NCBI RefSeq assembly: GCF_010093815.1
Contig: NW_022985578.1
Coordinates: forward strand, 95,503 to 156,185
Direction of reading: 5' to 3'
Source: Pseudovirgaria hyperparasitica
Taxonomy: Eukaryota; Ascomycota; Dothideomycetes; Acrospermales; Acrospermaceae
Length of the DNA: 60,683 nt
Position numbers and translations under genes: made by a program. The notes beneath the pieces were generated by a model. That model did not search any database, was not told the origin of the DNA, and worked only from the letters and a program-made list of their open reading frames with translations. Shown here piece by piece: positions 14,528 to 55,610 of this stretch. Within the stretch, counting starts at the first letter, position 1; the number at the start of each line of letters is the position of its first letter.

Positions 14528-14562
14528 AATATTAAGAAAACGTTTAATCCCGTTATATACCG

Positions 14563-25030: not shown

Positions 25031-25250
25031 GTCTATCTATTTCTCTACTAATACTATAGATATTTCTAAAGATTAACTATAGATTACTCTATATAAGAGA
25101 GATCTAATAGATAGTATAAGTAGAAATAGGAGCCTTACTACTTTAGACCTTCTTAAGTTTATACTTATTATTAGAATAGTAGTTACTAGTAAGTATACTA
25201 AAGACGAGTGGTTTATTATTAGTTAAGATAGTAGTTATATTATAAGCTTC

Positions 25251-26108: not shown

Positions 26109-27053
26109 ATAATAATAATAATAATATTAGTGTTTAACTAGGAAGAACTATATATATAGCCATATATATGCTCCACAGGCTTAGGCCTCCTCTAGTATTA
26201 GCTGCTATATATATAAGAAAACCTCCTGTGATTGGCTCCCTAACTAGACCCTGTTACTAACCTAACCTGGCCTAGTCTAAGTCCTCGAATCCCATTAGGT
26301 GATAAACTTACTTCTTATCCTTATATTAGGCTTTTATTACTATATTAGTACCGGCTCTTAATAACGCCCTAACTAACTATAGTAGATATTACCTTTCTTG
26401 TGATTAGGTAGGTCGCTAGGCTAGGCCTAGTCTTTTATTTCTATATTACCGTGTTTTTTCCTATCTATAGGAATATAGCTTTACGCCGGGTAGTAGTTAT
26501 TAATTAAGATAACTAATGCCGGAGGGGGTGTATATCTAATAGGTCCATACCTTAGTACTAACCCTAGCTAGGCCGAATTCGGAAATTATTCTTCGGGGCT
26601 ATATAATCGTCTATAGGTAGGCGGGATACTTAATTAGGTATTACTATCTATTTCGTGGTTACCGAGCCGGAGTAAGTGCGAGCTAAGCCGGATTAGGGTA
26701 GATAAGGCCCCGGTATATAGTGAAAATTCTATGATTCGAGCTAAGCTAGTTATGGGTCTAGCCGCTCTAGGCGTCGCTCTACCACTTAAGGTAGCTTAGT
26801 AGGTGGCTATATTAGGTAATTCTTATTATGTAATAACGGTATAGTCATTTTCATATTATCTAATAGTCGCTTAGAACTAAGTAGTTATATGACGGTAACC
26901 TTCACGTCACGTGCTCGCTTAGCCCCGTATACTTTTTAATAGAGCGTGCGAAAACTAGTGTGTAAAAAGGTAGCTATTATAGGATTCGAACCCACGACGT
27001 TGGATAATAAACGCTTCTAGTAATGTAGTATACTACTACTACGCCACCTGGCC
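26109..27053 (-). mobile_element. SINE-like element copy 1: tRNA-like head, LINE-like tail
   Basis: A 945-bp non-coding element on the minus strand flanked by perfect 14-bp duplications. Its 5' end (27053) is a tRNA-like sequence. Its 3' end (about 26109-26215) resembles the 3' end of the LINE in this window and finishes in a TAA/TTA-type simple repeat (26109-26130). It is over 95% identical in sampled stretches to the copy at 49119-50051, with mostly transition differences. It keeps many CpA/TpG dinucleotides (for example CTCCACAGGC), so it escaped most RIP and is probably young. No reading frame of note lies inside, so it would depend on the LINE machinery. The length is large for a SINE. 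Confidence 0.85.
26972..27053 (-). other. tRNA-like head of SINE-like copy 1 (RNA polymerase III A and B boxes)
   Basis: On the minus strand, an A-box match TGGCGTAGTAGTAG lies at 27046-27033 and a perfect B box GGTTCGAATCC at 26992-26982. A D-arm-like stem GCGTAG...CTAC(A/G)T can form. A run of five T lies immediately downstream (about 26970-26966). It is 82 nt long, so it needs a long variable arm or a short intron to fold as a tRNA. I do not assign an anticodon. Confidence 0.75.
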
Positions 27054-31094: not shown

Positions 31095-31185
31095 ATAATA
31101 ATAATATTAGTAAACTAGGTAGAGTACCACTCTATAGGCGCATGCCTCCTCTAGTCTAAGCTACTATATAAGAAGAAACCTACGA
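31095..31185 (-). repeat. LINE copy 2 3' tail shared with the SINE-like element
   Basis: Reads on the minus strand as ...TAGTAGCTTAGACTAGAGGAGGC...CTAGTTTAC followed by TTA repeats. The block CTAGAGGAGGC and its flanks match the last ~100 bp of both SINE-like copies. Confidence 0.85.
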
Positions 31186-31327
31186 ATAGGAAAAACTCCC
31201 TTATATCCATAACTACGCTCTATCTATCCTCTCGTTCTTTATATATATAGAGCCCTAGGGGCTACCTATGGGCCTATAGCCTATATTATAATAGTTTACC
31301 CTTAGGCAGCACGTGTAGATACAGAGA

Positions 31328-31358
31328 TTATTAGTTAAGGGCTACCCTTAACTAATAA
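31328..31358. repeat. 31-bp palindrome at the ORF2 stop, LINE copy 2
   Basis: The same 14-bp arms and CTA centre as at 4315. The ORF2 frame ends inside it: TAG at 31354-31352, with in-frame TAA TAA at its far edge. Confidence 0.95.
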
Positions 31359-34300
31359 TCGCGGTTCTCCCGGGGTTCTTCTAACGTATACCGGGGTTCT
31401 TCTAGTATATATCGGGCTTCTTCCGGCATATATACGCGGGTCTACTAGAACTAGGGGAGAGGAAGGTATACGAGCATCTATTAGGCGACGTCCTTAGAGT
31501 ACTTATTAAGCTATCGCGTAATGTCGGAGGTCCTCATCATATGTATAAGGGCTTATCTTAGGGTATAGAGGCTAGAGCATATCGCGAGGTAGTAGTATAT
31601 TATATCTCTCCGGCCGTAGTCCTCGTACTAGGGAGATATATCTAGGACGCCTCTCTAGTAGAGGTAATATAGGAGATCTATAGCGCCTATTCGGGCTTAG
31701 AGGAGTATAGATACTTAGGCCTTCGTTAGCCCTTTATATATCTATTTACTTAGTTCCTTCTAAGGCCCTCGAATCTATTCTAGATACCTATTCTATTAGG
31801 AGGCCTACTAGGCTTTAAGTACCTCCCTCTATTTATTCTAGATCTATAACTATATAACGCGGCTAAGCTCCTTAGGGCTCTATTAGCTTAGAATAGTATC
31901 CGGGTTATTTTAAACCTCCTATATAGTCTAGCTTAAGTCCGCCTCTATATAGTATTTATATTATACTTAAGTTTATTCTATAGTAGGGAGGGCCTAGTAA
32001 TACGCGTGGATACGTGTACGTAGTACGGCGAAGGTATATACCCTATCTCCTCTACGTTCTTATACTTATTATTTAGTAAAGTATATAAGTCTCTATATCT
32101 AGTAGAAGTCCTATATACTTATTACGTTTATCTCGCGTCGGAGGAGCATCGTATTAGTAGCTTTATATACGCCGGAAATAAGGCGGAGTATATAGTTCTA
32201 TATAGACTTAAGCTTTACTCGCCGAGCTTATATAAGGGCCGTGTACTAGCACTCGTGTCTATATATAAAGGCTAGGCGTGCTAGGGAGACGTATAGCTAT
32301 CTCGCCTTATCCTAGGCTATTCCCTACGTGGATGCCGTAATCCGGCGTATAGCGGTTTCTATCTAGAGGGCTCTAGAGACGGCGTGTGCCACCTATGGTC
32401 CCTATTTTAGCTTATTATTAATTATAACGCCGAGTACTCGTATACTCTATACTAGTAGTTCTATAAAGGCGTCGATTTAGGGGCGACGTACTCCCTCCCT
32501 AGTAGCCCATCCTCTATAGCGGTTAATAAAGTATATAAGCTAGTATTTTTTAGGTGCGAATTTTACTCCGTAGCGCTTTACCTACTAAACGCATTTCTCG
32601 TGGTCTCGTTCGAGTCGTATACATGTTCTACTAGTACTACTATCGACCGCGAGGAGGTATATATCGTCCGTGTATCCGACTACCTCTATATATTCTATTC
32701 TCTAAAGAAGGTCTACTATAAAGAAGAGGAAGAGGATCGGGGAGATAGTACTCCCTTACGGGATGCCGTATACCGTCTCCTTATATTCGCTTTGGTATCC
32801 GGGGATATATATTTAAGTAGTCCTTTACGCGAGGAAGGACTATATAAATTATATAATCTACTTAGGTATTCGCCTCATCCGGAGGTTATAGATAAGTCTT
32901 ATATGGTTTACCTTATTAAACGCCCCTACTATATCTAGGGAGAGTAGCGTAACGACTCGTCCTTATTTCTATATAGTCTAGATAACCTCGAGGATATGTT
33001 AAATAGCTATAATTAGGGAGCTTCCTACCTTCGCCTTCTGGTTTACTAGGAGAAGGCCGTATACCTATACTACTATACTTATCTTCTTAGTAATCATAGC
33101 TTCTAGTACCTTACTAAGGTAGGAGAGGAGGGCGATCGGCCTCCATCCCTTCGGCGTGTTTAGGCTCTTCCCTAGTTTTAGGAGTATAACTATATATACG
33201 GTTCGGAAGCTCTATAGGTAGTATCCTATAAGGGCGCACGCTCGGAATATATGGCCTATAATCGGTAAGGTCGCCTATATGGTTCTCTTATGGCATTAAT
33301 TCGGAATTCCGTCTAGCCCGGGCGCTTTATCGTTCGGGAGTATCTTAATAGCGCCGAGTATATTATTATCCGTGATTTCCCTAGGGATACTTATAGCTTC
33401 TAGGTATTCCGTGCCGTCGATATCTAATAGGTCTACGGGTTCTAGGAGAGGGAATATAACCTCTTATAGAATCTCTATTTTCTTAAGGCTTATGGAGTAC
33501 GTCTTTTCTTAATATATAAGAGGGGGTATAAGTGGTATAGGTGTCGGGGAGGCGGTACTTTTAGCCTATTTTACTATATACTATAGTCTAGTAGTATTAC
33601 GTATATATCTATCCGTAACTATATACTACTATTTACGTTACTTATTACGGAGGACCTTATCTTGTTATCTTCTCGCCTCTCTCTATTTATCCTACGCTTT
33701 AGGTATATGGTTATAGTATACGCGTATATATAATCTCCGGACTTCTCGCCTATACTCTTATACTTAAGGTATACTTTTCGGGTCTAGGGGTCTATATATT
33801 TAGTACGGCACGTGTTTATCTCTTACTCCCTAGTACGCCTATAGGAGTGTATTCACGGCCTGGTTAATGGCCGGGCCATTAGATACCTCGACTATAGACG
33901 GGTCTAGGATCGTCGATTCTAGGTCCTTCAGGTACTTTTCCTAGTTAGTGTCCTTCTATAGCCATCGCCCTTATTAGTCTTAAGGGGTGGATATATCTAT
34001 TATGGTCTCTATATATTCGTGGTCGGAGTCTATCTATATAAGGCTTAGGCGGCAGTATTAAGTCCTATTATAAATATATCTAGTGGCTAGGGTAAGGTCG
34101 AGTATGGATCCGCCCTTATCTTATTTATGTTTTCGCTAGGTAATCTATCCTACTAGTATAAGAAGGTATAGAAAGCCGTGGTATCGGGTGTGTAGTTCTC
34201 TAGCTCGAAGCTCTTCGTAGGTGACGGTTAGTCTACCCTACTAGCTATAATAGAGCTTAAAGTCTTCTAGGAGGATATATTATTCTAGCTCGGTAGTGCC

Positions 34301-34850
34301 CTTAAGCATATTATCCGCCTAAAGCGATCGGTTCTAATTATATATATTATATATATAGAGGGGTCCGATATTCGTCTAGAGGTATAGTATTATCCGGAGG
34401 TTATCCCGTTTAGTATACAACTATAATAAGAGTAGAATAGACTTTTAGATATAGAAGAGGACTCTCCTCTCCGGTCCTAGGGGGTATATTATATAATATT
34501 CTAGGTGTGTTATTGGTTTGTTCGTCTAGTAGTGTTTATATAGCTTCTATATAGTAAGTATTATAGCTCCGGTCTCCTTAAGGAGTATCGCCTAGTTCTT
34601 ACGTTTATACTATACGTTTATCTATATAATTAGGAGTATATCTTAGTCTCTTATTAGGTGCTGGGGAATATATAGACCTATATATTCGTTCCTCTAAGAC
34701 GCGACTATCCTTATACGGCGGCGGCCTTAGTAATTCCTTAGGGCCGTCCTATTATTAGCTTTCTCGGGATAGTTTACTATTCCTAACCGCTTCCTCGTGA
34801 GGAGGTAGTCTATAGTAGTAGTATTATAGTAAAGAGAGGAACGGTAGTAG
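31352..34850 (-). pseudogene. LINE copy 2 ORF2 (APE + RT), RIP-inactivated
   Basis: Full-length ORF2. The APE motif GDFN is damaged here (reads EDFK, about 34254-34278), whereas copy 1 keeps it. The LPNDKAPG motif sits near 33305-33340 and the catalytic box reads GYTDD at 32663-32677. After the RT core the chain continues through a conserved thumb-like region (about 32220-31900) and ends in the heptad EEPRY repeat and the residues NRDY before the stop in the palindrome. Plus-strand open frames here (for example 32600-32938) are shadows of this gene. RNase H was not identified. Confidence 0.88.
31365..31435 (-). repeat. 21-bp tandem repeat at the C-terminus of LINE ORF2
   Basis: Three units of about 21 bp (CGGGGTTCTTCTAACGTATAC and variants) directly before the ORF2 stop. 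On the minus strand they read as a heptapeptide repeat close to EEPRYTL. Copy 3 has the same block (about 50575-50640). Confidence 0.85.
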
Positions 34851-34859
34851 GTCGCATCG

Positions 34860-36114
34860 TTTATAGCTATCTTACTCCCTTTATCCGGATTAAGTAGATA
34901 TATTTAGTAACCTATTTACGTTTCGCGCACGTAGCCGACTATAACGGGTACTTACCGTTATAGTTAGAGTACTTCGCCGTATCCCTATCCCTCTAGCCCT
35001 CTCCTCGTGTTCTATAGGGGCACTCCTAGATACTATATTCTTATTAATACTATCTATACCTAGTCTTTTAGGAGTACCGCTATACCGTATACCCGTATCC
35101 CTAATAGTTAAAGCACTATGTTATCGCCTATACTCTATCCTATAGTTCCGCTATAAGAAGCTCCCCTTCCGCTAGGAATCCCTCTTATATAATTTAATAC
35201 GCGAGGGCGGGGTCCTTAAGCTCTACTATTATAGTAGAGTATGCCTTTAATCTAGTTTTAATCCCTTATATATTCTTCTACTATACTCTTACAATCTTAA
35301 TCCCTAGGTATTTTTGCTTGTTTAACTATTCTATCCGCGTGATATCCTCTTCTCCGATAACCTATCCGCTTACGTGTATAGAGTATATCTATATTAGGTA
35401 TATGGCCGCCCTAATAGAGACGCCTAGAAAGATACTACTAATCGCGTTCGGATCGCGCGAGATGGTCTACTATATAATATTCGTTATCGTGGTAAGTACT
35501 ACTTCTCCTAGCGTAAGTTTAGCGGCGACGACGTTTAACTATATTCCCTTTTATTTATTAATCTTACTTACTATATCCTTTAGAGATACTTACTAGACCT
35601 ATACTAGGGTGTTCTTATCCTAGATTACGACGCGTATACTACATACTATATCGCCGGTCCGGGGGGCCCGTAGTATAGCCTCCGGTATTACTACTATTTA
35701 TACCTATATACTAGGGTACTTACCTTAAGTAAGTTCCTCCTAGATTCTACGTAGGCTAGCCTCTATTCGGTCGAGTCTACCCTCCGGTTCTCCTAGTTAT
35801 ATCTTCTTCTCCTCCTCCGTAATTCCCTTTAGGTTCCGGATAAGGTTCTAGAATATATATAGAAGGGTCTTCTAGCCCTCTCCGGCTTCCTTCTCTATAC
35901 GTACTACCTAGTAGTTAATATAATCTAGGAGGGTTTCCCCTCTCGGGGTCCCCTTTATTCCGTCTATCTATAGTGGCGTGCGCCTTTAGATATATTCTAC
36001 GTTTTAGATAGGTATATAGTTACCCTTAGTAATATCGCTATATAGCCTTTTCTATCGTACCGGTAGGGGTATATCCGGTATATACCGGGGTATATTAGTG
36101 CCTAAGGCCGCCAT
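34860..36114 (-). pseudogene. LINE copy 2 ORF1 (zinc-knuckle gag-like), RIP-inactivated
   Basis: Starts at the ATG 36114-36112, two bases after the palindrome, and opens MAALGTDIP-like as in copies 1 and 3. The zinc-knuckle region lies at about 35150-34900. Homologous to copy 1 ORF1 throughout, with stop codons from Gln/Trp codons. The open frame on the other strand at 35318-35596 is antisense. Confidence 0.82.
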
Positions 36115-36116
36115 AT

Positions 36117-36147
36117 TTATTAGTTAAGGGCTACCCTTAACTAATAA
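36117..36147. repeat. 31-bp palindrome before ORF1, LINE copy 2
   Basis: Identical to 4315-4345 and 31328-31358. Ends 2 bp before the ORF1 start codon. Confidence 0.95.
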
Positions 36148-36394
36148 AAGGGGGTTAGCGTATTAGCGTTCTAGTAGCGTGGTCCGTGCCTCTATCTCCG
36201 TAAGGATTTTAAGAGGGTGTATATATATCTTTACACGGCGATAACGTCTTAGTTTCGACGCTATACGTACGTGTGTATAGTAGTAGTTAGTGTACTCGGT
36301 GTACTCTATCGATTAAGGTATATATCTCGCTGTATTACCCCGAATAGACCAAGTTAGCCTCTTGGGGATGTAAAAGAAGTTTAGAAAACTCTAT

Positions 36395-39400: not shown

Positions 39401-41807
39401 ACTAATCTCTTATATATCTTCTCTATAGAATCTCTAATATAGAAGATAGTTAAGGGGCTATCTAGCTACTATAGTAGTAATACTAATAAAAGATAATCTA
39501 GTAACTATAGTAAACTAAATAGGATAGATAAACGAAGATATAATATAATATAGATATATATTAGTATTAATAATAGGGACTTATATAATAGCTATTAATA
39601 TAAAAAATATATATATATATATCTAGCTTATCTTAATGTGTTCGTTTATCTACTAATAAACTAGTAGTCTAGATATACTAGTAGTAAATATAGTAGTAAT
39701 ACTCTATATAGCTTAGATATTATAGTAATATTCTACTATAATAGTAACTAGGGATATAACGGCCTTACGTTCTCTTCTCTACTATATTAGCTATCTAGCT
39801 TAATAGAAGAAGATAGAGAAATAGTAGTAGAGAGGGAACTAACTATCTATAAAAAGAGGCGGTTCTATAGAGATAGTCTCTAGTCTTATAAACGAGACTA
39901 GTACCTTATAATAATAGAGATTTTAATTACTATTATGTTTTTAGACCAGTTACTACTAGTATTTAATTGCCTTAATATATAGCTAGATAGTAGTCTAGAT
40001 AGTTTTAGAATACTAGTATAATCGATCTAGATAGCCGCCGGAGATATTAATCTTAGTAGCTACTATCTTAATTATAATTTATAAAATATACCTCCCGCCT
40101 ATATTATTATACTAGTAAAGAAAGATATAATAGACTTCTATTACTAACTTCTCTCTAGAGTTAGATAGATAGTATCTAAATACTAGAACTAAAAGATAGC
40201 TAAGAAGAGAAAAGCTAGTATAAGTAATCTAATATATAATAACATATATATAGAAGTAAAGGTATATTACTTATATTATATTAGATATATTACTAATTAT
40301 TAGTATAATACTAGTATAACTTAGAAAATATTTATAGAGCTAGTAGTAATTAAGACTCTAAAGTTAGTTCTATTATAGTCTCTAAGATTCCTTAGATTAA
40401 AGGGGTACTATAGTAGTATATTCTAACCGATTCTACTATCTATAATTACTATTATATATATTATAATAAGGTATACCCTTAATAAATATAGTAGCGGGTA
40501 GGTGCTAAACTTATTCTTTAGTTACTATAGATTTATATACTCTCTACTAATACTAGGTATATATATATACCTTTATCTAATTATATACTAAATTATATAG
40601 AGGAATAGTAAGTACTAAGTCTAATATAGTCGAACTAGGCGCCCTACTATATTAACTATATTTAAAAATCGCTAATAGTATTAGTATTCGTAGTACTAAT
40701 ACTAATTAACCTAGATACTATATATATAAATCTATATAAAGATAACCTAGATAACTTCTCTAAAGTAGATATAGATAACTTAGATAAGAGCGAGGAGTCT
40801 AAGCTATTAGATAATATAAGTATATACTAAAGTTATAGAAGCTATATAGATACTAACTACTATAAAAAGAATAAGTTAGATACTCTAAACTAGTTAGATA
40901 AGTACCTTAAATTATCTTATATACTATTAGATATAGATAAGAGTTCTATACTACTAGTAGTAGCTACGGATAAGATTATACTATCTTAGATATTAAGTAT
41001 AGATCTACTCTAAGTAACCACGGAAATAGTAAATAATAGTATATATATATAGTATAAATAAGTCTATTACTAACTTATTATCTCTAGTTATAGCTACCTT
41101 AACTAGTAGTCTATCTACTCTAACTAATACTTAAATTAAAATAAAGTTAGATAGTAGCGGACGTTTAAGTTAGGTCTTTAACCTATATATAAAGAGTATA
41201 TACTTTTAAGAGAAGTCGGATATTAGTATATAACTAGAGAACTATATAGACTACTATAAGACTAAATAGATAATATAAGAGAGAATAAAAATAGTAACTA
41301 GAAATATAGAGGGAAGTATCTAGTAGAAGAAAAGGTTATTAAAGATAGTTCTAGATAAGGATATCTTTTAATAGATAAAGAATACTATCTAAAGGTAGAA
41401 GAAAGGAAGGTCTACTATATTTTATTATAGCTATATAGTCGGAGAGAGCTTAGAATAGTACTATTACATTGAGTTCCTAGTCTAATTAATATTAAACCTC
41501 TACTCTCTATTATATATTATCTTTCTAGTATTAAATTTAAAGACTATAATTAAATATACTAAAGATATAATTTAGAATAATAAGATATATAGAGTTATAG
41601 AGATACTTTAGATAAAGATATTACTTTAGAAAAGAGACTTCTATTAAAATAGATAGAGTATATAGAGTAGATAGAGTAGATAGAGTAGATAGAGAAGCTA
41701 AAATACTAGATACTATTTATTCTATAAGAGTGATTAGTATATAGTAAATAAGTAGTACTAGTAAGCTAATTAGTATTAAGAAAATAACTAGTACTAATTA
41801 TCCCGTT
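36407..41807. other. AT-rich RIP relic, parent element not identified
   Basis: About 5.4 kb of AT-rich, CpA-depleted sequence continuing the locus to the left of LINE copy 2. Plus-strand frames between about 36420 and 38790 run long with only TAA/TAG stops and suggest one or more inactivated proteins. A less mutated patch (GAGCGACCACGCGG, about 37294) lies inside. I found no RT, integrase, protease or transposase signature. Confidence 0.35.
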
Positions 41808-41969
41808 AGTATAAATAGTACGTTTAGTATAAACGGGACGTTTAGTATAACTAGTACGTTTAGTACTAACGGGATATTTAGTATAACTAGTACGCTTAGT
41901 ACTAACGGGACGTTTAGTATAACTAGTATATTTAGTATAAACGAGACCTTTAGTATAAGCGGGATACTT
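41808..41969 (+). repeat. 18-bp minisatellite, 9 units, Ser/Thr-rich in one frame
   Basis: Nine head-to-tail 18-bp units alternating AGTATAACTAGTACGTTT and AGTACTAACGGGACGTTT, so a 36-bp higher-order unit is visible. The plus-strand frame starting at AGT reads S(I/T)(T/N)(S/G)TF without stops across the array and on to about 42030. The array ends about 130 bp before the Gypsy C3 fragment. Confidence 0.92.
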
Positions 41970-42104
41970 AGTAGAAATTATATAAAGCCGTTCTATTAGA
42001 ATAGATAGTAAGTAGATCCGTCTAATAAATATAATAGAATAAAAGAATACTTAGGGAGTACTTAGAAGTACTTAGGAGCGCCGTATCTTTCCTAATATTA
42101 TATT

Positions 42105-42561
42105 CTATAATATCTTCTATAGTTATATAAAATATTATATAAGTTATTAGTATAATAGTTTATAAGATATAGTTATTAGTAGAGATAGTTATAGATAGAC
42201 TATTCTTCTTATTTAAGTTTAGAGAAGATCTACTATAAGAGATAGTACTATAAGTATTATAATAAGTAGTTAGAGCTATTTCTATAAACTACTATTATAC
42301 TATATAAAGAGGAATTAAAATATAAGAATTATAGATATAAAATAGTAGTCTAATAGATTATAGAAGGATTTAGAAATATATTTAAAAGAGTAGTCTACTC
42401 TTATAATAAGGTTAATTTCTAAAGAGTAGAAATTAAGTATATATAGTCTACTTATATAGTACCTTCGCTTAATCTAGCTAACTTAATCTAGATTTATCTA
42501 TTACGGGACTATACTAGACTATAGTAGTCTAGTTAAGTCTATTCTAGTACTTATTCTAATA
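42105..42561 (-). mobile_element. Gypsy 'C' fragment, copy C3 (5' LTR and leader)
   Basis: Reverse complement of 44620-45080. It contains an LTR (42321-42561) and about 215 bp of the adjoining leader, then stops abruptly at about 42105. Together with the start of C2 it forms an inverted repeat around the LINE fragment at 42562-44619. Confidence 0.88.
42321..42561 (-). repeat. LTR of Gypsy C3 (241 bp)
   Basis: Homologous to the two LTRs of C2 at 44620-44860 and 58733-58974. It begins TATTAG (TGTTAG before RIP is likely) and ends CTTATA. Confidence 0.85.
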
Positions 42562-44619
42562 ACTATAGATAACTAAGATAGAGTAGACCTTACTTAGGGA
42601 TACCCTTATAAATAAGATTAAATACTAGATAGTATATATAGAAAGAGAGATTAAGAAGAGAGAAACTACCCTTCTTAATAGCTTCTAGAGTCTAGTCTAG
42701 AATATCTAAGAACTTACTATAGAAGTAAAGTAGATACCGGAGTTAAACCTAGAATCTAGACTAGACTAGATTAAGACTAGTCTATTAAAGATCTAGATAG
42801 ACCTTATCTAGAAAAAATACTCTAGTATATAGATATAAGTTACTATACTAATAGATAGTATAACTAGAATAGCTTAAATACTAAGAATATCTAAGAGAGG
42901 AGTATATAGTATATAAGTTACTATCTAGGATAAAGTAATACTTATATAGATCTAATAAGCGTCCCTAAAGGATATTATTAATAAAATTAATAACTAGAAA
43001 GAGATATAGTTAAATATAGTTATAGCTAAACTTACTCTAGAAGGTATAGTACTAACTACTACTACTAATATAGTCTAGTAGACTATCTCTTATAATCTAA
43101 ATATAATTAATAATATCTTCTCTAGTATATATATCTATATAAATATATATCTATTATAGATATATACTATTACTATCTAGAGCTATATTATTAGAAATAA
43201 TAATATTAAGTAAATAGAGTAATCTAATAACTAGAAGTACCCTAGAATTAAGATTATAAAGGTATAGTAGAAAAATATATAGAGAATTAAGGTAAAATTA
43301 AAAAAATACTCTACTATAATAGTAGAGCTCTAAGACCCTACCCTTATCTATTAGATTATATAAGAAGACTTTTTAGCTAAGAGAGAGTTACTTATAGTAG
43401 AACTATAGAATAGAGTATAGATAATAATCTAATACTTTAACTATTAGAGATATAGATATACTAGATAGAGATAGTCTTAGAAGACTATCTATAGATAGTA
43501 CTAATAGAACTATAGTATCTAGAAATACTTCTATAGAGCTTAGAGTAATAGTATATATAATAGAGATACTACTAAGTATATTAACTATAATAGAAAATAT
43601 CTATTCTAGTTAGTAATATATATAAAACATAAGTAAGTTACTAAGTATATTAATACTATAAAGATAAGAGAGGTAAGATAGATATACTAGGCTATAAGGC
43701 CTCTACTAACTATTCTAACCTTACTATCTACTCTAATCTTATTTATAAATATATTAACTAATCTATAAGGGGGTAGTAATAATATATAATAGTATACTAT
43801 ATAGAGGAAGATAGACTAATCTAGAGATATACTTTAAGTAGCTACTATATAAGGGTAATCACGCCTTAATACTACTAGTATATAGACTTAAGTATTCCCT
43901 AGTATATAATAAGAAGCTAAGATATACTTATTATTATATAGATAAATATATAATATAAATAAGAAAACTAGACTATACTTCTAGAAGAGATAGATACTAT
44001 AATAATAGCTATTTAGAAGCTATATAAATACTACTAAACTAATAAACTAATAATATATCTAGAATACTATACTATCTACTCTCTAGGCCCGGGTAGAAGA
44101 GTTCTATTCTATATATATAAATTAATCCCGCTCTTAGAATAGTTCTATATAGAATAAGACGACCTCTAGATAATACTATATCTCTAGATAAATATAGAGT
44201 CTCTCTATATCTATAATATCTATAACTAGAGAGAATTACTTATACTAGACGCTATACTAGAGAGTATTATAGTACTAGAATAATATATTCTTCTAGGTAA
44301 CTTTAATCTCTACTATAGATAGTAGAGAGGCCTAATAGTTATAAGGGAAGAACTTACAGTAAGAGAACTATATATAAGGTACTATAACCTTCTATATCTT
44401 CTTATACTAGTTAGATAAATTATATAGAGGAAATATAAATAAGATAAGAAAGAATCTATACTTAACCTTACCCTTACTATAGAATATATAAGCTATAGAG
44501 TATAATACTACTATCTAAGTAAGATATAGATAGACTCTAACTATAAGTATATAGAGACTATAATAGATATATCTATATCTAATAAATAATACGAAAGATA
44601 GCTATAGAAAGATACTAAC
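42562..44619 (+). mobile_element. Second LINE type, ORF1 and APE part only
   Basis: A plus-strand non-LTR fragment between two Gypsy C ends. An ORF1-like frame has a degenerate zinc-knuckle region at about 43430-43600, with Cys to Tyr changes. An APE endonuclease follows with the signature LLGNFNLYY at about 44290-44316 (from LLGDFNLHH) and ends near 44600. It is much more AT-rich than the other LINE copies and only distantly similar. The RT half is absent: the frame stops at the C2 LTR and does not resume after the 3' LTR of C2, so the junction is not a simple insertion. Confidence 0.78.
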
Positions 44620-44860
44620 TATTAGAATTAATTCTAGGGTAGACTTAACTAGACTACTATAGTCTAGTATAGTCCCGTAATAGATAAATCTAGATTAAGT
44701 TAGCTAGATTAAGCGAAGGTACTATATAAGTAGACTATATATACTTAATTTCTACTCTTTAGAAATTAACCTTATTATAAGAGTAGACTACCCTTTTAAA
44801 TATATTTCTAAATCCTTCTATAATCTATTAGACTACTATTTTATATCTATAATTCTTATA
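44620..44860 (+). repeat. 5' LTR of Gypsy C2 (241 bp)
   Basis: Matches 58733-58974 and the reverse complement of 42321-42561. Starts TATTAG and ends TTCTTATA, consistent with TG...CA ends altered by RIP. Confidence 0.88.
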
Positions 44861-45059
44861 TTTTAATTCCTCTTTATATAGTATAATAGTAGTTTATAGA
44901 AATAGCTCTAACTACTTATTATAATACTTATAGTACTATCTCTTATAGTAGATCTTCTCTAAACTTAAATAAGAAGAATAGTCTATCTATAACTATCTCT
45001 ACTAATAACTATATCTTATAAACTATTATACTAATAACTTATATAATATTTTATATAAC

Positions 45060-46840
45060 TATAGAAGATATTATAGAATATAAGAATAGAGTCTATTATA
45101 CTCTATCTTAGTCTAGTTTAAACTATACTAGATCTAACCTTAATATAAGACTAGACCCTATTAATATTAATAAGCTAATTTATTAGAACCATCTAATATT
45201 AACTATACCCTATAATAATATATATACTAGACTATATAAAGAGAGATAATATTAGACTTAATTTAAGTAATAACTATATAAACTTAATAAAGCTTAAGAA
45301 TATACTATAAGATAACTTAAAGCTATATTATATACTTTAGTTCTAGTAATAATTAATTTATATCTATATAGATCTATACTAACTAAAATAGTCTATTCTA
45401 GTCTACTACTATCTTAATTACTCTAATCTAAGAAACTATCTTACTTTAATAGTAAAAGTAAAAAGAGTCTCTATATATAGATTTACTAATATAGCTAATT
45501 CTTTTATCTATTTATAAATAATAGTAATAAAATTAGATTTATCTAGAACTACTCTAATCTAATACCTTTAGAATATTAGATAGTATACTAAATTAAATAC
45601 TCTAAGAATATCTATAACTAGAATATATTTACTAAATTTCTTCTTTAATATTTCAGTAATAGAGCTAAATAATATAACTAGACCTAGAGCTATATCTTTA
45701 AGACTTAATAATAAGATAATTAGTTACTATTATAACTTCTTAAATATCTTTAGTCTCTCTAGAGAGAAGCTAAAGAAGATTATATAATTTAATACTATAA
45801 TAACTTTAAATAGTCTCTTACTCTAAATATAAAGAACTATCTTAATCTTATAATAATAATCTCTATAGATCTCTAAGCTCTTATAAATCTTATAAAGTAA
45901 TACTAGTATATAATAAATAACTAATATTATACTAGTATATAACTATCTCTAATAATCTAATCTAATATAAAATTATCTAACTAAAGCCGATTTAGTAATA
46001 GACCTTATAGAATATTATAAGATTACTACTACTTCTTAAACTTAAGAATACGAGAATTATATTATAGATCTCTCTACTAATTAATATATTAAGATATAAG
46101 AATTAACTTATATAAATAATCTAAAGTTACTTACTATATCTATAGTAGAATAGACTATATAGTACTTAAGTACTATTTAGAGAAACTACTAAGTACTAAT
46201 ATAACTAACTAATTAGTTATATATTATAAGTACTAGTAGCTAGAATATATTATATCTAACTATCTAATATAGAATATAAAAAACTAATAGTCTATAAGAA
46301 ACTCTTATAACTTATAGATATAACTATAATAGAGAGATAACCTACTAAATAGTATATTAAACTATAGACTAGATCTATTAAGGTCCCTTATAGATAATAT
46401 TAGACTATAATACTTAATAGTAGTTTAGCTACTAACGTTATATTAATCTAATAAGTATAAGAACTTAATATTAATATCTAAGCTCTAATAGATACTATAT
46501 TCTATAGTATTAATAGTTCTATTAAGTTATACGGAATCTATACTACTTAATATAGTATCTAGAATAGTAGAAGGAAATAGAAACCCTACTACTCTACCTT
46601 TATTATAGTAGATAGTTTCTTTAATATAATTCTAGATATACTATAGCTTAAAAAATATAATCCGAAACTAGATTTTATTAAGAAAATAGCTAGCTAGTAT
46701 ATAAACCTACCTTAATAGAAACTAGTATAGCTTATTAATAATAAATAATTCTAGAAAGATTATAAGAAGATAATCTCTACTATCTATATACTTTTACTTA
46801 TCTAAAATAGTAAGCTTAGTATTAAAGTAGATAAAAACCT
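45060..46840 (+). pseudogene. Gypsy C2 gag-like and protease region, RIP-inactivated
   Basis: A plus-strand frame carrying a Gln-rich segment followed (about 45600-45900) by a region with the pattern of Gypsy gag proteins. The same region is present in reverse in C1 (about 13450-14250). The part leading to the RT should hold the protease, but I could not find a D(S/T)G box. A zinc knuckle was not seen. Stops are dense. Function is inferred mainly from position. Confidence 0.5.
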
Positions 46841-46845
46841 ACTAT

Positions 46846-46935
46846 ATTAGTATAAAATATACTAATATATTATATTAGTATAAAATATACTAATATATTA
46901 TATTAGTATAAAATATACTAATATATTATATTAGT
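46846..46935. repeat. 28-bp tandem triplication inside Gypsy C2
   Basis: ATTAGTATAAAATATACTAATATATTAT occurs three times head to tail (46846, 46874, 46902) with a partial fourth. The C1 copy has a single unit at the matching place (about 12540-12575), so the expansion is specific to C2. The unit contains the palindrome TAGTATAAAATATACTA. Confidence 0.93.
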
Positions 46936-46949
46936 AATTAATTCCTCTA

Positions 46950-49104
46950 AATTACCTTAATACTAATCTACTAATCTTACTATTAATCTTTAAGATAGCT
47001 AATAACCTTTATATAGACCTATCTACTCTCTTTTAGAATCTAAACTAGAAGTTCTTTAAGAATATATTAAAAAGAATCTTATATAAGAATAGATTAGATC
47101 TAGTATATCTCTAGCTAGATCTCTAATTCTCTTTATAAAGAAGAAGAATAGAAGTCTCTATCTATATACTAACTACTATAGTCTAAATAATATTATATAA
47201 AAGAATTATTATCTACTACCTCTTATCTCTAAATCTATTAATAAACTAGAATATATAAAGATCTTTACTAAGCTTAATCTATATAATATCTACTATCGCC
47301 TTTATAGTAAGAAGGGTAGTAAATAGAAAATAGCCTTTAGAATCTATTATAGATACTTTAAGTATACTATAGTCTCTTTTAGACTAACTAATATACTAGA
47401 TACCTTTTAAGTATATATTAATAATATACTAGTAGATCTACTTAATATAATATATATTATATACCTAGATAATATTCTTATCTTCTTAGATAATAAGGAG
47501 GAGTATATCTAGTATATATATATAGTTCTAGATAGACTAGAAAAGTATAAGCTATATATTAAGCTATCTAAATATAAGTTCTATTAGAACTATATTAACT
47601 TTCTTAGCTTTATTATTACTAACTAAGATATAACTATAGAGAGAGATAGAGTTATTACTATTATAGACTAGTCTAAACTAAAATCTATTTAAGATATATA
47701 TATCTTTATTAGCTTTACTAACTACTATTAAAAATTTATTAAATACTTCTTCTATTTAGCCGTACTACTTAATATATATACTACTACTACTAATTTATCT
47801 ATTATAGTCTATAGTAGATAGAAATAGTATAATATTAAGTTATAATCTATTAAATTAATAGAGGTTAAAAGAATATCCTTTAAGAAGATTAAAGAAGTAT
47901 TTATAACTACTCTATTACTAGTATACTTTAATCTAACTAAATCTATTTATATTAAAACTAATATATTAGAATTTATAATCTTAGATATACTCTTCTAGTC
48001 TAGACTAATAGAGTCTAAAAAGGTCTAATAGTATCTAGTTATATTCTTCTTATATAAGATAGCTAATATTAAGACTAGATATACTATTTATAACTAAGAG
48101 CTACTAGTAGTAGTAGAGTTATTTAAGTAGTAGTAATATTATCTTAAAGGTACTATAGATAATATTAAGTTACTAACTAATTACTATAACTTAGAGAGAT
48201 TTATAAGTATAATAGTTTTAAATTATTAATAGATCTAATAGGCTAAGTAGCTTATAAATTTCTACTTTATAATCTACTATTAACCTAGAAGTATAAATCT
48301 AGCTAATAAAATATTAAGAAGACCTAACTATAAAGAAGGCGCCTAGAACTATAGTAGCTATAGGGTTCTAGAGTAGCTATAGATCTAACTCTTAAGAATA
48401 AGATTAGATAATAAGTTATTAAATAATTAGTAAGATACTAATACTAATACTAGTAATTAAATTCATAAGACTAAAGCTAGTAACTAAAGATATAGTACTA
48501 AAGTTTCTAGCGAGCTATTTATTAACGCTATTAGAGAGGATAATAGTACCTAGTATATATATTAAGTAGATCTTATCTAGTTAATTATAGATCTATAAAA
48601 GATAGATCTAATAGTTTTAAAGTTATATAAAATATAGTAAGATAAGTTATTATAGACTAAAGTAGACTATAAGTAGATCTTTATAGATAGCTTACTCTAC
48701 TATAATAGAAAGTACTATATACTAATAGATAATATATAATTTACTATAGTTAGCTAATACTATAACGCTAACCTAGTAGAACATTTTAGATATATATATA
48801 CCCTAAGCTTAATTTATTAGTACTATTTTTAGAAAGATATACCTAAGTATATTAAAGAATAGATAGCTACTTATCTAATTTATTAAAGAATAAAGGCACC
48901 TAGATATAAGCTATATAGAAATTTATAGCCTCTACTAGTCCCTTACTTTATATAGAAAGATATTACTATAGATTTTATAGTTAACTTATCTCTAAGTAAG
49001 ATACTTAGAATAAGTTATAATTTAATTCTTATTATTATAGATAGACTTATAAAGATATCTAGGTATATTCCTATATAGAAGATAATTATATTAAAAGAAC
49101 TAGT
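46950..49104 (+). pseudogene. Gypsy C2 pol, RT to mid-integrase
   Basis: RT from about 47010, with the LFIKKKNRSLYLYTNY block (VDYR-type), the catalytic box reading YLDN at 47462-47473, and the KLSKYKFY and FLSFIITN blocks that follow it. RNase H lies at about 47900-48180. After a spacer the integrase appears from about 48780: a KAPRYK block, then IDFIVNLSLSK near 48965 and LIIIDRLIKISRYIP near 49030-49070. The frame is broken by the SINE-like insertion right after a LKELA.VF motif and continues at 50067. Confidence 0.85.
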
Positions 49105-49118
49105 ATAAGTATTCTAGA
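49104..49118. repeat. Target-site duplication of SINE-like copy 2, left
   Basis: TATAAGTATTCTAGA, identical to 50052-50066. Confidence 0.95.
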
Positions 49119-49200
49119 GGCTAGGTGGCGTAGTAGTAGTATACTACGTTACTAGAAGCGTTTATCATCTAACGTCGTGGGTTCAAATCCTATAACAGCC
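49119..49200 (+). other. tRNA-like head of SINE-like copy 2
   Basis: A box TGGCGTAGTAGTAG at 49126-49139 and B box GGTTCAAATCC at 49180-49190 (one transition from the consensus). A stem GCGTAG/CTACGT and a second ACGTTA/TAACGT can form, but not both fully. Five T at about 49204-49208 could act as a polymerase III terminator, which would work against transcription of the whole element. Confidence 0.75.
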
Positions 49201-50051
49201 ACCTTTTTACACACTAGTTTTCGTATACTCTATTAAAAAGTATACGGGGCTAAGCGAGCACGTGACGTAAAGGTTATCGTTATATAACTACTTAGTTCTA
49301 AGCGACTATTAGGTAATATAAAAATGACTATACCATTATTACATAATAAGAATTATCTAATATAGCTACCTACTAAGCTACCTTAAGTAGTAGAGTGACG
49401 CCTAGAGCGGCTAGACCCATAACTAGCTTAGCTCGAATCATAGAATTTTCACTATATACCGGGGCCTTATCTACCCTAATCCGGCTTAGCTCGCGCTTAC
49501 TCCGGCTCGGTAACCACGAAATAGACGGTAATACCTAATTAAGTATCCCGTCTATCTATAGACGATTATATAGCCCCGAAGAATAATTTCCGAATTCGGC
49601 CTAGCTAGGGTTAGTACTAAGGCATGGACCTATTAGATATACACCCCCTCCGGTATTAGTTATCTTAATTAATAACTACTACCTAGCGCAAAGCTATATT
49701 CCTATAGATAGGAAAAAACACGGTAATATAGGAATAAAAAACTAGGCCTAGCCTAGCGACCTACCTAATTATAAGAAAGGTAATACCTACTATAGTTAGT
49801 TAGGGCGTTATTAAGAGCCGGTACTAATATAATAATAAAAGCCTAATATAAGGATAAGAAGTAAGTTTATCACCTAATAGAATTCGAGGACTTAGACTAG
49901 GCTAGGTTAGGTTAGTAATAGGGTCTAGTTAGGGAGCCAATCATAGGAGGTTTTCTTATATATATAGTAGCTAATACTAGAGGAGGCCTAAGCCTATGGA
50001 GCATATATATAGCTATATATATAGTTCTTCCTAGTTAAACACTAATATTAT
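49119..50051 (+). mobile_element. SINE-like element copy 2: tRNA-like head, LINE-like tail
   Basis: A 933-bp element on the plus strand inserted in the Gypsy C2 integrase between perfect 14-15-bp duplications. The head (49119-49200) is the tRNA-like sequence, the body is non-coding, and the tail (about 49947-50051) matches the LINE 3' end and finishes ACTAATATTATTA. Removing the element and one duplication restores the integrase frame, so this was a clean target-primed insertion. It is slightly more RIP-mutated than copy 1: its B box reads GGTTCAAATCC. Confidence 0.9.
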
Positions 50052-50066
50052 TATAAGTATTCTAGA
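50052..50066. repeat. Target-site duplication of SINE-like copy 2, right
   Basis: TATAAGTATTCTAGA, partner of 49104-49118. Its first base may belong to the tail. Confidence 0.95.
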
Positions 50067-50305: not shown

Positions 50306-50543
50306 ATAATAATAATAATAATATTATATAACTAGGTAGAGTAGTACTCTATAGGCCTATGCCTCCTCTAGTCTAAGCTACTATATAAGAAGAAACCCTA
50401 TAGGGAAAAACTTCCTTATATCTATAACTATATCTCGTTAAACCTCTATTTCGTCTTAAGTATATAGCTATAGAGTACGCCTATTAGCCTATAGTCTATA
50501 TTACCGTTATTTCGCCCTTAGGTAGCACGTATAGGTGCGGAGG

Positions 50544-50574
50544 TTATTAGCTAAGGGCTACCCTTAACTAATAA
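50544..50574. repeat. 31-bp palindrome at the ORF2 stop, LINE copy 3
   Basis: Same hairpin with one change in an arm (TTATTAGCTAAGGG). ORF2 ends within it, with TAG at 50570-50568. Confidence 0.93.
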
Positions 50575-53500
50575 TCGGGGTTCTCCCGGGGTTCTTCCGG
50601 TATATATCGGGTTACTACCGGCGTATACCGGGTCTCTTCCGGTATATATTTCTAGGTCTACTAGTACTAGAGGAGTAGTAGATATATAAGTATCTATCGG
50701 GAGACGTCCTTAGGGTACTTATTAAGCTATCGTGTAATATCTAAAGTCTTTATAACGTGGATAAGCTATTACTATTATATATAGAGGTTAGAGTATATAG
50801 CTAGATAGTGGCGTATTATACCTCTCCGGCCGCACGCCTTATACTATAGAGAGTTATTAGGAACGCCTCTCTTATAGATATAGTATAGAAGTCCTATAGC
50901 GCCCGTTTAGGCTTGGATAAGTATAGATACTTAGGCTTTCGTTAGCCCTTTATATATCTATTTACTTAGTTCCTTCTATAGCCCTTAAATCTACTCTAGG
51001 TATCTATTCTACTAGGAGGTCTAGTAGGTATAGAGTACCTCTTTCTACTTATCTTAAGTCTATAACTATATATTTTTTACGAGTTCTTAAAGGCTCTACC
51101 GGTCTAGGAGAGCGTCCGGGTTATCTCGGACTTCTTATACTACTTAGCTAGAGTTAGTTTCTATTAAGCATCTATACTATATTTAATTCCGGTCTATATA
51201 TAGGAGTATACGGTAATATATACTAATTTATATATATAGCACGGCGAAAGTATATTCTACATTTTCTATACGTTCCTATACTTATTATTTAGTAAAGTAT
51301 ACCACCCTCTATGTCTAGTAGAAGTTATATATACTTATAATATCTATCTCGTGTCGTAGTAGTACCGTGTTAGTAGCTTTATATACGCCTAATATAAGAC
51401 GGAGTATATAGTTCTATATAGATTCGAGCTTTATTCGCCTAGTCTATATAAGGGCCGTATACTAGTACTTATATCCATACGTAAAGGCGGGTCGTGCTAT
51501 AGATATATATAGCTAGCGTGCCTTATCCCGGGCGGTTCCCTACGTAGAGGCTATAATCTATTATATAGCGGCTTCTACCTAGAGGGCCCTAGAGACGGTA
51601 TATACTACTTATGGTCCCCATTTAAGCTTACTATCTAGTATAACTCCGAGCGCGCGTATACTTTATACTAGTAGTTCGTTAAACGCGTTAATTCGGGGAC
51701 GTCGTTCGCCTTCCCTAGTTACCTATTTCCCTTAACGGTTAATAAAGTATATAAGCTAGTATTTCTCCGGGGCGAACTTTACTCTATAGTATTTTACCTA
51801 CTAGAGGTACCTCTTATAGTTCTATTCTAGTTATCTATACGTTCGGTTAGTATTATTATTAATAGCTAGAAGGTATATATTATCGGCGTATCTAACTACC
51901 TCTATATACTTTATTCCTTAAAGAAGGTCTACTATAAAGAAGAGGAATAGGATCGGAGAGATAGTACTCCCTTATAGGATGCCGTATACCATCTCTTTAT
52001 ATTCGCTCTAGTACCTAGAGATATATATCTAAGTTATTCTTCCTATAAGGAATAACTATATAAAGCGTATAATCTATTCTAGTATTCGTCTTATCCGGAG
52101 GTTATAAATAAGTCTTATATAGTTTACCTTATTAAACGCTCCGGCTATATCGAGGGAGAGGAGCGATACTACCCGTCTCTATTTCTATATAGCCTAGACG
52201 ACTTTAATAATATATTAGATAGCTATTATTAGGGAGCTATCTACCTTTACCTTCTAGTTTAGAGGGAGGAGATTATATTTCTATACCGCGGTGCTTATCT
52301 TCTTCGCTACCGTGGCCTTTAGTATCTTACCTAGGTAGAAGAGAAGGGCGATTAGTCTCTATCCCTTTAGGGAGTTAGAGCTCTTTTCTAGTTTTAGGAG
52401 TATAATAGTATAGGCGACTTAGAAGTACTAGGGGTGGTATCCCTACGTGACGTATACTTAGAATATATAAGTAATAAGCGGTAGGGTCACTTTTATAGTA
52501 CTTTTTAGGCATTAATTTAGAATTCCATCTAGTCTAGGTGCTTTATCATTTAGAAGTATCTTAATAATATTAAGTATGTCCTCCTCTATAACTTCTTCGG
52601 GGATATCTACCGCGTATAGATATTCGGCGCCGTGAACGTCTAATAGGTCTACTAGTTCCGGGAGAGAGAACATAGCCTCCCATAGAGCCTTAGTTTTCTT
52701 AAGGCTCGTGGAGTATATTCTCCCCTAATATATTAGGGGAGGTATAAGTAGTAGAGGTGTCGGAGTATCTACGCCCTTAGCCTATTTCGCTATACGCTAT
52801 AGCCCTATTACGTATCGTGTCTATTAGCTAGTAATTATATACTACTATTTACGCCTTTTATTATAGAGGACTTTATTACGTTATCGTATTACTTCCTTCT
52901 ATTCTTTCTACGACTTAGGTATTCTTATATAGTATACGCGTGTATATAGCCTTCGGGCGTCTTATCTACTTTCCTATACTTAAGGAATCCCCTTTACTTC
53001 CGGGGGCCGGTATATTCGGTATAGTATATGTTTATTTCTCGCCTTCTAGTATATTTATAGGAGTATCTATACGGCCTGGTCTATAGCTAGGTCGTTAGAT
53101 ATATCGACTATAGAGGGATCTAGGATCGCCGATTCTAGGTCCTTTAGGTACTTTTCCTAGTTAGTATCCTTCTATATCTATCGTCCCTATTATTTATTTA
53201 GGGTATATATATTTATTATGGTTTCTATATATTTATAGTCGGAATCCGTCTATACCTAGCTTAGGCGGTAGTATTAGATCCGGTAACTAATATACTCCGT
53301 GGCGAAGGTAAGGTTAAGCGTAGACCCGTCTTCGTTCTATTTATATTTTTTCTATATAACTTATTCTATAGGTGTGAGTAGGTATAGAAAGTCGTGGTAG
53401 TAGGTACGTAGTTCCCTTACTCTAAGTTCTTCCCTAACTATGGCTAGGCCTCCCTACTATTAGTAGTAGAGGTTAAAGTCTCCTAGGAGGATGTATTACT

Positions 53501-54060
53501 CTAGTTCCGTGGTACCCTTAAGCATCTCGTCTAGTATAAGTATACGTTATTAGTTATATATGTTATATATATATAGAGGGCCTATATCTATTTATAGGTG
53601 TAGTGTTATTCTAAGGTTATCGCGCTTAGTATACGACTATAATAAGAGTAGTATAGACCTATAAATATAGAAGAGGACTCGTCTTTCTAGTCCTAGAGGG
53701 TATATAGTATAGTATCTAGGGTATATGGTTGGTTTACTCGTCTAGTAGTATTTATAGGGTTCCTAGATGGCGAGTATTATGGCCCCGGTCTCTTCGAGGA
53801 GCGTCGCCTAGTTCTCTCTTTTATATTATACGTTTACCTATATAATTCGGAGTATATTCTAGTCCCTTATTAGGTACTAGGGAGTATATATACCTATATA
53901 CTTATTCCTTAGAGGCGCGACTATCCTCACGCGGTAGTAGCTTTAACTATGCCTTTTAGTCGTCCTATTGTCTTTAGAATAGTCTACTATCCTATCTAAC
54001 TACCTTCTAGAGGGGAGGTTAGAGGTATTATAAAGGAAGGGCCCGTGGTAGGTATTATAT
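50568..54060 (-). pseudogene. LINE copy 3 ORF2 (APE + RT), RIP-inactivated
   Basis: The APE motif lies near 53466-53492 (GDFN, as in copy 1). The PNDKAPG region at about 52515-52550 is strongly mutated, and the catalytic box reads RYADN at about 51890. It ends with the EEPRENPDY residues before the palindrome stop. The divergence from copies 1 and 2 includes changes outside CpA/TpG. Confidence 0.85.
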
Positions 54061-54069
54061 TCTATAACT

Positions 54070-55318
54070 ATCTCGCGTCTCTCGCTTTTATCGTATAAAT
54101 GTATTCTATAACCTATTTGCGTTTTATATACGTTATCGACCACGACGGGTATTTCCTATCATAGTTTAAATACTATGCTATATCCCTGTTTCTTAGTCTA
54201 TCTCCTAGTGGTTCATGAGGGTACTCCTAGATAGTATAGTCCCCACGGTACTATCCGCACTTAGTCTTCTATAAGTACCTTTATATAGTATATCTATACC
54301 CTTAATAGTTAAAGCACTATATTATTACCTATGCCCTATTCTATGGCTCGGCTATAAGGAGCTCTCCTTCTACTAGGAATCCCTTCTATATAATATATTA
54401 TACGAGGGCGGGGTCTTAGAGCTCTATAATTATAGTAGAGTGTTTTTTCGCCGTCGTCTTAATCGCCTATAGGTTCTTCTACTATACTTTCACGATCTTA
54501 ATCCCTAGGTATTTTCGCGTGTTAGATTATTCTATACGCGTAATATCCTCCGTACTAATAGCCTATCCCTATATAGGTACTACGTATACTATAATCGGGT
54601 ATATAGCTACCCTAATAGACGCGCTAGGGAAGATACTACCTATCACGTTCGGATCTCGCGAGATGTTTTACTATATAGTATTCGTTATAGTAGTAAGTAC
54701 TATCCTACCTAGCGTAACTTTAGTAGCTACGACGCTCGACTACATTCCTTTCTATTCGTTAATCTTATTTATAATTTCCTTTAGGGATGCCTATTAGACC
54801 TACACTAGCGTGTTCTTATCCTAGATTATAACATGTATACTATATACTCTATCTATAGTTCTAGTAGTCCTTAGTATGGTAGCTCCGGGTGTTACTATAA
54901 TCTAAGCCCACGTGTTAGGGCGCTTACCTTAGAATAGCTCTTCCTAGATTCTCCATAGGCTGGCTTCTATTTAGTTAAGCCTACTACTAGATTCCTCTCG
55001 TGGTAACTTCCTTTCTTCCTCCGTGATTCCTCTTAGGTTCCGGATAAGATCCCGGAATATATAAAGGAGGGTCTTCTTTCTCTCCTTAGCGTCCCTCTCT
55101 ATATATATTATCTAATATTTAATTTTATCTAGGAGGGTCTCCCCTCTCGGGGTCCCCTTAGTCTAGATTATCTATAGTACTTCGTACCCTTAGTTAGTTC
55201 CTATATTTTAGATAGGTGTCTAGCTATCTATATTAATATCGCTATATGGCCGTTTCTACTATACTAGTAGGGGTATATCCGGCGTCTACCGGGGTATTAC
55301 GATGTCTAAGGCCGCCAT
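54070..55318 (-). pseudogene. LINE copy 3 ORF1 (zinc-knuckle gag-like), RIP-inactivated
   Basis: Start ATG at 55318-55316 in the context ACCATGGCGG, two bases from the palindrome. The coiled-coil-like and zinc-knuckle regions align with copies 1 and 2 (knuckles at about 54340-54090). Open frames on the plus strand (54519-54797) are antisense shadows. Confidence 0.8.
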
Positions 55319-55320
55319 GG

Positions 55321-55351
55321 TTATTAGTTAAGGGTAGCCCTTAACTAATAA
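55321..55351. repeat. 31-bp palindrome before ORF1, LINE copy 3 (centre inverted)
   Basis: Identical arms to the other copies, but the 3-nt centre is TAG instead of CTA, as if the hairpin had been flipped. Confidence 0.95.
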
Positions 55352-55610
55352 AAGGGGGTCGGCGTGTTAGCGTTTATTAGATATAGTCTATACTCGTGTT
55401 ATCGAAGAGTCTTCGAGCGTATATATATAGTATCTCTATATATCGGTATTGTCGCGTATTATATACTATACGTACGCATGTGTGTCGGAGGTTATTATAC
55501 TCGGTATACTCTATTATTTAATATATATAAATCGCTATTTTACCCCGAATTGACTAGTTTAGTCCGTTAGGGTATAAGAAGTTTTTTTTAGAGGAAATAT
55601 AATACTAATC

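Follow-up and report, generated by a model that had tools for sequence, protein, structure and literature searches.

Several tRNA-derived SINEs of fungi have been described together with a LINE that shares their 3′ end. Listed pairs include Mg-SINE with MGL/MgL (MGR583) in Magnaporthe grisea and SINE2-1_BG with the Tad1 LINE Tad1-24_BG in Blumeria graminis (PMC3747384). Mg-SINE is 472 bp long and present in ca. 100 copies, and AfuSINE2-1a of Aspergillus fumigatus combines a tRNA-related head with an ACT repeat and a 3′ terminus resembling the 3′ UTR of the Tad-clade LINE I-1_AF (PMC5063351). Fungal LINE/SINE chimeras are known in Magnaporthe (PMC2104539). Reported lengths of fungal SINEs extend from 472 to 900 bp, the long elements being egh1/EGH24 (900 bp) and Egr1 (700 bp) of Erysiphe graminis and mgsr1 (800 bp) of M. 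grisea (PMC5063351). In the stringent-type pair UnaSINE1/UnaL2 of the eel, a common 3′ stem-loop and short repeats are needed for mobilisation, and common 3′ stem-loops include Tad1 in fungi (PMC5135761).

Here we analyse a window of 60,683 bp from the ascomycete Pseudovirgaria hyperparasitica, which carries two copies of an element of ~930 bp. Our main reading, to which we give a probability of about 0.82, is that of a SINE of tRNA origin that lives as a parasite of two resident LINE families of the endonuclease type, LINE1 and LINE2, by means of a common tail. By description, it is like Mg-SINE in being a tRNA-derived fungal SINE with the 3′ end of a resident LINE, but differs in length and in its ~24 young copies. 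It is comparable to SINE2-1_BG/Tad1-24_BG as a tRNA SINE/LINE pair, and to AfuSINE2-1a, again by description, in its tRNA-related head, LINE-like 3′ end and trinucleotide repeat; AfuSINE2-1a is however much shorter, with its LINE-like part at positions 210-335, and its repeat is ACT instead of TTA. UnaSINE1/UnaL2 share one stem-loop, in contrast to the three-way junction predicted here, whose second hairpin differs in length between SINE and LINE. With egh1/EGH24, Egr1 and mgsr1 it shares a great length for a SINE.

The sequence-only reading of the window had called a SINE of more than 900 bp unusually long; this holds for SINEs generally but only partly for fungi, where elements of 700, 800 and 900 bp are reported (PMC5063351). 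Its remark that documented fungal pairs sharing a tail are few is in line with the three that we met in the accessible literature (Mg-SINE/MgL, SINE2-1_BG/Tad1-24_BG and AfuSINE2-1a/I-1_AF). Our literature search found no fungal SINE/LINE pair with a stem-loop tail. Titles and abstracts, with subscription papers mostly uncovered, gave no description of the ~930-bp SINE, although Repbase or a publication on the genome may contain it; the accessible part of PMC4522978 does not mention SINEs of its fungus. The kind of element is thus already known, and the present family is a new example, for which the evidence on insertion and homology is clean and the Pol III step is putative.

A dispersed SINE family with fixed ends

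The genome searched comprises 35.0 Mb in 59 contigs, the window being C30:95503-156185; its size, its tRNAs with introns and the RIP-like pattern of mutation described below fit a filamentous fungus. The features of the window and of two further loci are collected in Table 1.

Table 1. Positions of the SINE, its parts and its partner LINEs (window coordinates unless a locus is named)
Feature	Position	Strand	Evidence or remark
SINE copy 1, full length including short (TTA)n end	49119..50051	+	one of 21 full-length genome copies
SINE copy 2, full length, target duplication TATAGAATTTAGAA(G) on both sides	26109..27053	-	95% alike to copy 1
5′ target site duplication TATAAGTATTCTAGA	49104..49118	+	exact repeat of 50052-50066, 15 bp
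3′ target site duplication	50052..50066	+	exact repeat of 49104-49118
tRNA-related head, model positions 1-73, long variable region	49119..49201	+	own-genome covariance model R1, 20.5 bits, E 0.007
A-box match TGGCGTAGTAGT	49126..49137	+	match to consensus, read directly
B-box match GGTTCAAATCC	49180..49190	+	match to consensus, read directly
T5 run after head; T4 then C in less mutated copies	49204..49208	+	run scored over 26 copies
Non-coding SINE body	49202..49915	+	no BLAST match to window LINEs
LINE-related 3′ tail of SINE	49925..50040	+	tail alignment, shuffle scores, BLAST
SINE tail core, predicted three-way junction	49976..50035	+	ACUAG/CUAGU stem enclosing two hairpins
LINE1 copy, partner family, frame broken	31095..36394	-	other family copy reads EN (PF14529) and RT (PF00078)
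LINE1 core of 3′ tail	31114..31155	-	42-nt core: same predicted three-way junction; 83-nt piece: not in minimum-energy fold
LINE2 copy, second partner family	50306..55610	-	74% identical to LINE1
LINE2 core of 3′ tail	50331..50372	-	same predicted three-way junction
Candidate SINE/LINE2 chimeras	L074:1-527 (C25), L073 (C8:1582080-1582196)		last 57 bp (L074) and 62 bp (L073) of SINE

Search of the genome with copy 1 gave 34 matches. Of these, 21 are young and full-length (L001-L021, with 90-100% identity to the query), L022 and L023 lack the head, L030 is interrupted by a stretch of N, five are old and mutated (L025-L029, 79-84%), and four are short fragments; the remaining one, L024, repeats the L018 insertion and adjoins a run of N. 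L018 and L024 (C23:67770-69682) share the same left flank, and the single insertion, seen twice by the N run, is probably an assembly duplication. In all 21 full-length copies the unit before the TTA repeats measures 928-930 bp and is followed by (TTA)n. The longest ATG frame in the four copies examined is 37 amino acids, and the element has no coding capacity in them. The two window copies lie where the sequence-only reading had placed them, with the target duplications that it gave, and the further genomic copies that it had suggested looking for exist. The element is a dispersed multi-copy family with fixed ends, and its earlier label, SINE-like, can be firmed up to SINE.

The window also contains tandem arrays at 25169-25681, 41770-41985, 14365-14544 and 10030-10299, with units of 18, 18, 20 and 90 bp, respectively. 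Two copies of ~3.5 kb in opposite orientation (10892-14330 and 45082-48698), 94-96% alike over five stretches, are probably another transposable element.

Insertion sites

Target duplications of 11-19 bp were found around 22 of the 23 copies L001-L023. In the set tested for duplications and empty sites (22 copies: L001-L021 and L023), 21 have exact duplications of this length; L022, which was read separately, has one of 14 bp, and the minus-strand window copy one of 14-15 bp. L005 carries none. L005 and L006 (C4) are identical in the first 14 bases of their right flanks, which looks like exchange between copies. In L021, the repeat stops 3 bases short of the element.

To look for empty sites, the flanks of each copy were joined minus one duplication and compared with all sequence available. 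Gap-free empty sites of equal length were obtained for eight of the 22 copies (L009, L010, L011, L013, L014, L018, L020 and L021), the best matches being 83-95% identical. L010 and L013 are inserted within LINE2 sequence, the uninterrupted counterpart of which is present in the window. Target duplications and empty sites, both characteristic of SINE insertion, are therefore observed.

The duplications abut the TTA tail and start with TATA, TTAT or TATT in 18 of 18 readable copies (25 given, 7 unread). Past the last TTA repeat, the flank starts with TA at 19 of 22 SINE ends (23 loci given, one unread) and at 31 of 33 LINE ends (30 loci, three of which gave two ends), compared to a TA background of 25% in the window. 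Insertion with duplications and the target preference are common to SINE and LINE.

A tRNA-related head

The A-box and B-box matches reported earlier do begin at the 5′ boundary, and nucleotide 1 of the element corresponds to position 1 of the tRNA model; the two boxes form a putative internal Pol III promoter. Detection of the head depended on the model used. ARAGORN found no tRNA in the window or in 14 loci, and Rfam at gathering score gave no match within the window. At E<=10, Rfam matches on copy 1 were far below the cut-offs of their families, with no tRNA among them; among four loci, the Rfam tRNA model reached 19.9 and 19.8 bits in two, below its cut-off of 29. We also used a covariance model, R1, for which 17 tRNA genes without introns were taken from this genome and a cloverleaf, minus the anticodon stem, was set by hand; 30 loci (115,565 bases) were searched with it.

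R1 matches the head in 21 of 21 full-length copies, over model positions 1-73 every time. In 12 heads E is below 0.01, and in the other nine, at the same place, it is 0.016-1.8. The best score (37.4 bits, E 2e-7) belongs to a less mutated copy with boundaries equal to those of copy 1. The match covers nucleotides 1-83 of the element in 20 of 21 copies, that of L011 beginning 8 nt later. Only two of 27 R1 matches lie away from a head, each at E ~0.4. Compared with 49 tRNA loci, the head has its best raw score with tRNA-Leu(CAG) and its best z with tRNA-Ala(AGC), without a clear winner. Against shuffles, the folded head is more stable in L012 (z -3.5) and less clearly so in L015 (z -1.6). The covariance check that had been proposed thus came out positive for the own-genome model and below cut-off for Rfam, and the tRNA-like part, whose absence from most copies would have spoken against the element, is found throughout the full-length set. 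By these model scores, the head is tRNA-related, but it is not a working tRNA.

Partner LINEs and mutation of the copies

Pieces of the LINE1 copy L071, read with X at stops, score above the cut-offs of PF14529 (31.2 bits) and PF00078 (65.7 bits); to judge from these matches, an AP-type endonuclease and an RT belong to one element. Copies truncated at the 5′ end occur (L061, L063, L068 and L069). Among 127 RT-like places scored of 222 candidates, all carry stops except one on C39, only 62% identical, so that none of the places scored represents an intact partner. RT matches in long open frames were noted at C36:53464-53946 (1451 aa) and C39:15157-16095 (573 aa), unlike most RT matches listed (150 scored of 424 candidates), which carry stops. 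The part behind the RT in one mutated LINE copy showed no RNase H match, and Pfam found nothing above cut-off in the plus-strand frames of the window, where the LINEs run minus. A protein search with the RT piece returned one weak unnamed hit. Many fungal LINEs of this build belong to the Tad1 clade. The window LINE1 has a palindrome, TTATTAGTTAAGGGTAGCCCTTAACTAATAA, close to each of its ends (nucleotides ~274-305 and 5063-5093), and so does LINE2.

Transversions from the consensus number 16 in 20,049 SINE sites (0.0008 per site, 23 copies) and 9 in 14,398 LINE1 sites (0.0006 per site), the latter counted on 30 ends that are the best 30 of 517 candidates matched to the query, a choice that favours low divergence. 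These counts suggest that SINE and LINE1 spread within a similar, recent time. The same 23 SINE copies differ by 789 transitions as against the 16 transversions, with C before A in 59 of 83 C/T columns and G after T in 37 of 58 G/A columns. This is the signature of a RIP-like process.

On C8 and C25, LINE2 sequence from the 5′ terminus, in inverted orientation, directly adjoins the final bases of the SINE. These junctions look like products of twin priming or of a template switch between SINE and LINE2 RNAs; chimeras arising by template switch, in one orientation, have been reported for MGL, a LINE of Magnaporthe (PMC2104539). At L074, a LINE2 that had entered the TATA-rich SINE hairpin in backward orientation would look alike. 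The target duplication is unreadable at both junctions, and L124 begins with 1,684 N. At C8, only ~115 bp of LINE2 are present, and none of the other SINE matches listed for the genome lies on this contig; both points somewhat favour one event. L073 and L074 were not counted as proof of a single enzyme, since a backward LINE2 insertion would be similar and the other side of L074 is N.

The shared tail and the transcript: weighing the alternatives

The last ~125 bp of 12 SINE copies (of ~24 young copies), 7 LINE1 and 6 LINE2-type copies align column by column. As both region and tail are AT-rich, we considered whether such a likeness might have arisen by chance or through low complexity in DNA mutated by RIP. 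Compared to 1000 dinucleotide shuffles, the SINE tail scores 69.5 with LINE1 (shuffle mean 31.9, sd 5.4, maximum 58.5, z 6.9) and 61.5 with LINE2 (mean 31.8, sd 5.8, z 5.1), the latter barely above the best shuffle at 60.0. The 69 other SINE windows tested, however, reach at most 34.5 with LINE1 and 49.0 with LINE2, and BLAST of four SINE copies against the two LINEs aligns the tail at 76-85% over 50-54 bp, with E from 8.65e-4 to 2e-11. In addition, a core pattern of 26 letters, searched with a tolerance of one mismatch, has 208 matches in the genome (SINE and LINE unsorted), the reversed control none. These controls rule out chance, the probability of which we consider negligible. The resemblance reported earlier between the tail and the LINE 3′ end is thus real and persists when many copies are aligned; by this comparison, the SINE 3′ end is homologous to those of two resident LINE families, which supports the earlier view of the SINE as their non-autonomous partner. 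The common 3′ tail, target duplications and junction preference would also be expected of a non-autonomous deletion derivative of a LINE that begins with tRNA-like letters by chance. This is contradicted by the tail-only match, since BLAST at E<=0.01 aligns neither head nor body of the four copies with LINE1, LINE2 or the LINE fragment at 42092-45089, and by the fit of the head to the tRNA model from end to end; we regard it as highly improbable.

The source of the RNA is a separate question. The same element, with the same LINE partner, might be transcribed by RNA polymerase II through read-in or another promoter, the head being a relic or an RNA domain. Directly after the head, at nucleotide 86, 10 of 26 scored copies carry TTTTC and 16 TTTTTA (L024, among the 26, repeats L018), and the four full-length copies listed have T4 runs at nucleotides 86, 100, 328 and 833-834, so that Pol III would have to read through all of them. 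Moreover, at 930 nt the RNA would be long for a product of Pol III, and two copies lack the head altogether. Against this, the 21 full-length copies begin at the first tRNA base, as expected with a Pol III start, and the less mutated copies carry only T4-C after the head; Pol III termination in yeasts usually needs more T than T4. Transcription by Pol II thus seems unlikely to us. Since the mutations prefer C when it precedes A, RIP itself probably lengthens the T-run after the head (TTTTC to TTTTT). The longer run may stop Pol III more strongly and could silence copies in that way. The headless copies, each with target duplications, begin at nucleotides 89 (L022) and 88 (L023) as read by eye, in the T-run just past the head; these two events give a hint of an enzyme stopping at the folded head.

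Predicted structure of the tail RNA

The tail core measures 60 nt in the SINE and 42-44 nt in the LINEs. Its predicted fold is an ACUAG/CUAGU stem around a 4-bp hairpin and a second hairpin, which has 6-7 bp in the LINEs and 13 bp in the SINE. This three-way junction is predicted in 23 of 25 tail cores (the exceptions being L018 and L014) and is reached by 0-3 of 200 dinucleotide shuffles per core. Standard pairs occupy 99.7% of the pair cells, compared to 97.0% in shuffles and 29-53% when the structure is slid. Cells changed on both sides number 16 against 4.7 in shuffles, 12 of the 16 being one SINE-LINE difference; pairs changed on both sides number three against 1.2 (20 of 500 shuffles as high), counts to which C-G to U-A changes arising from RIP can contribute. 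Further pair types are no better than in shuffles (7 against 6.6), and helix 1 is invariant.

Fold stability was rejected as evidence, five tails being no better than shuffles (z +0.4 to +1.0) and 42-118 of 200 shuffles being as stable as the cores; only shape and pair counts were therefore used. Among five pieces that include longer flanks, three still have the junction as their minimum-energy fold, namely the two SINE tails and the LINE2 of the window; LINE1 31105-31187 and L038 do not. The shape and pair counts point to a 3′ RNA structure common to SINE and LINE tails, with few independent pair changes.

A further reading is that the LINE enzyme recognises the tail by its shape: the outer stem, the 4-bp hairpin and a second hairpin free in sequence and length (~6 bp in LINEs, 13 bp in the SINE). 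The tRNA-folded head would in addition act as a road-block to reverse transcription, giving headless copies. Because only three of the five longer tail pieces keep the junction, we hold this reading to be rather doubtful, if possible.

Proposed mechanism and significance

In the reading that we prefer, a tRNA-derived SINE exploiting LINE1 and LINE2, the head would serve as an internal Pol III promoter with its start at nucleotide 1, and Pol III, passing the T4 runs, would produce a non-coding RNA of ~930 nt. The last ~125 nt of this RNA, which copy the LINE 3′ end, are predicted to fold into the three-way junction and are followed by (UUA)n. The LINE reverse transcriptase would mistake this tail for that of its own RNA and begin target-primed reverse transcription where the TTA repeat meets a TA-rich target, presumably with TTA/TA priming. 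Insertion leaves the 11-19-bp duplications, and the inserted copies appear to have been mutated later by the RIP-like process.

One genome that holds many LINE copies of two families together with a young SINE, all with the same tail, is well suited to the study of such pairs, since the obligatorily constant part of the tail can be read off from them. It also shows a ~930-bp SINE under RIP-like mutation, for which a longer T-run after the head is suggested as a side effect.
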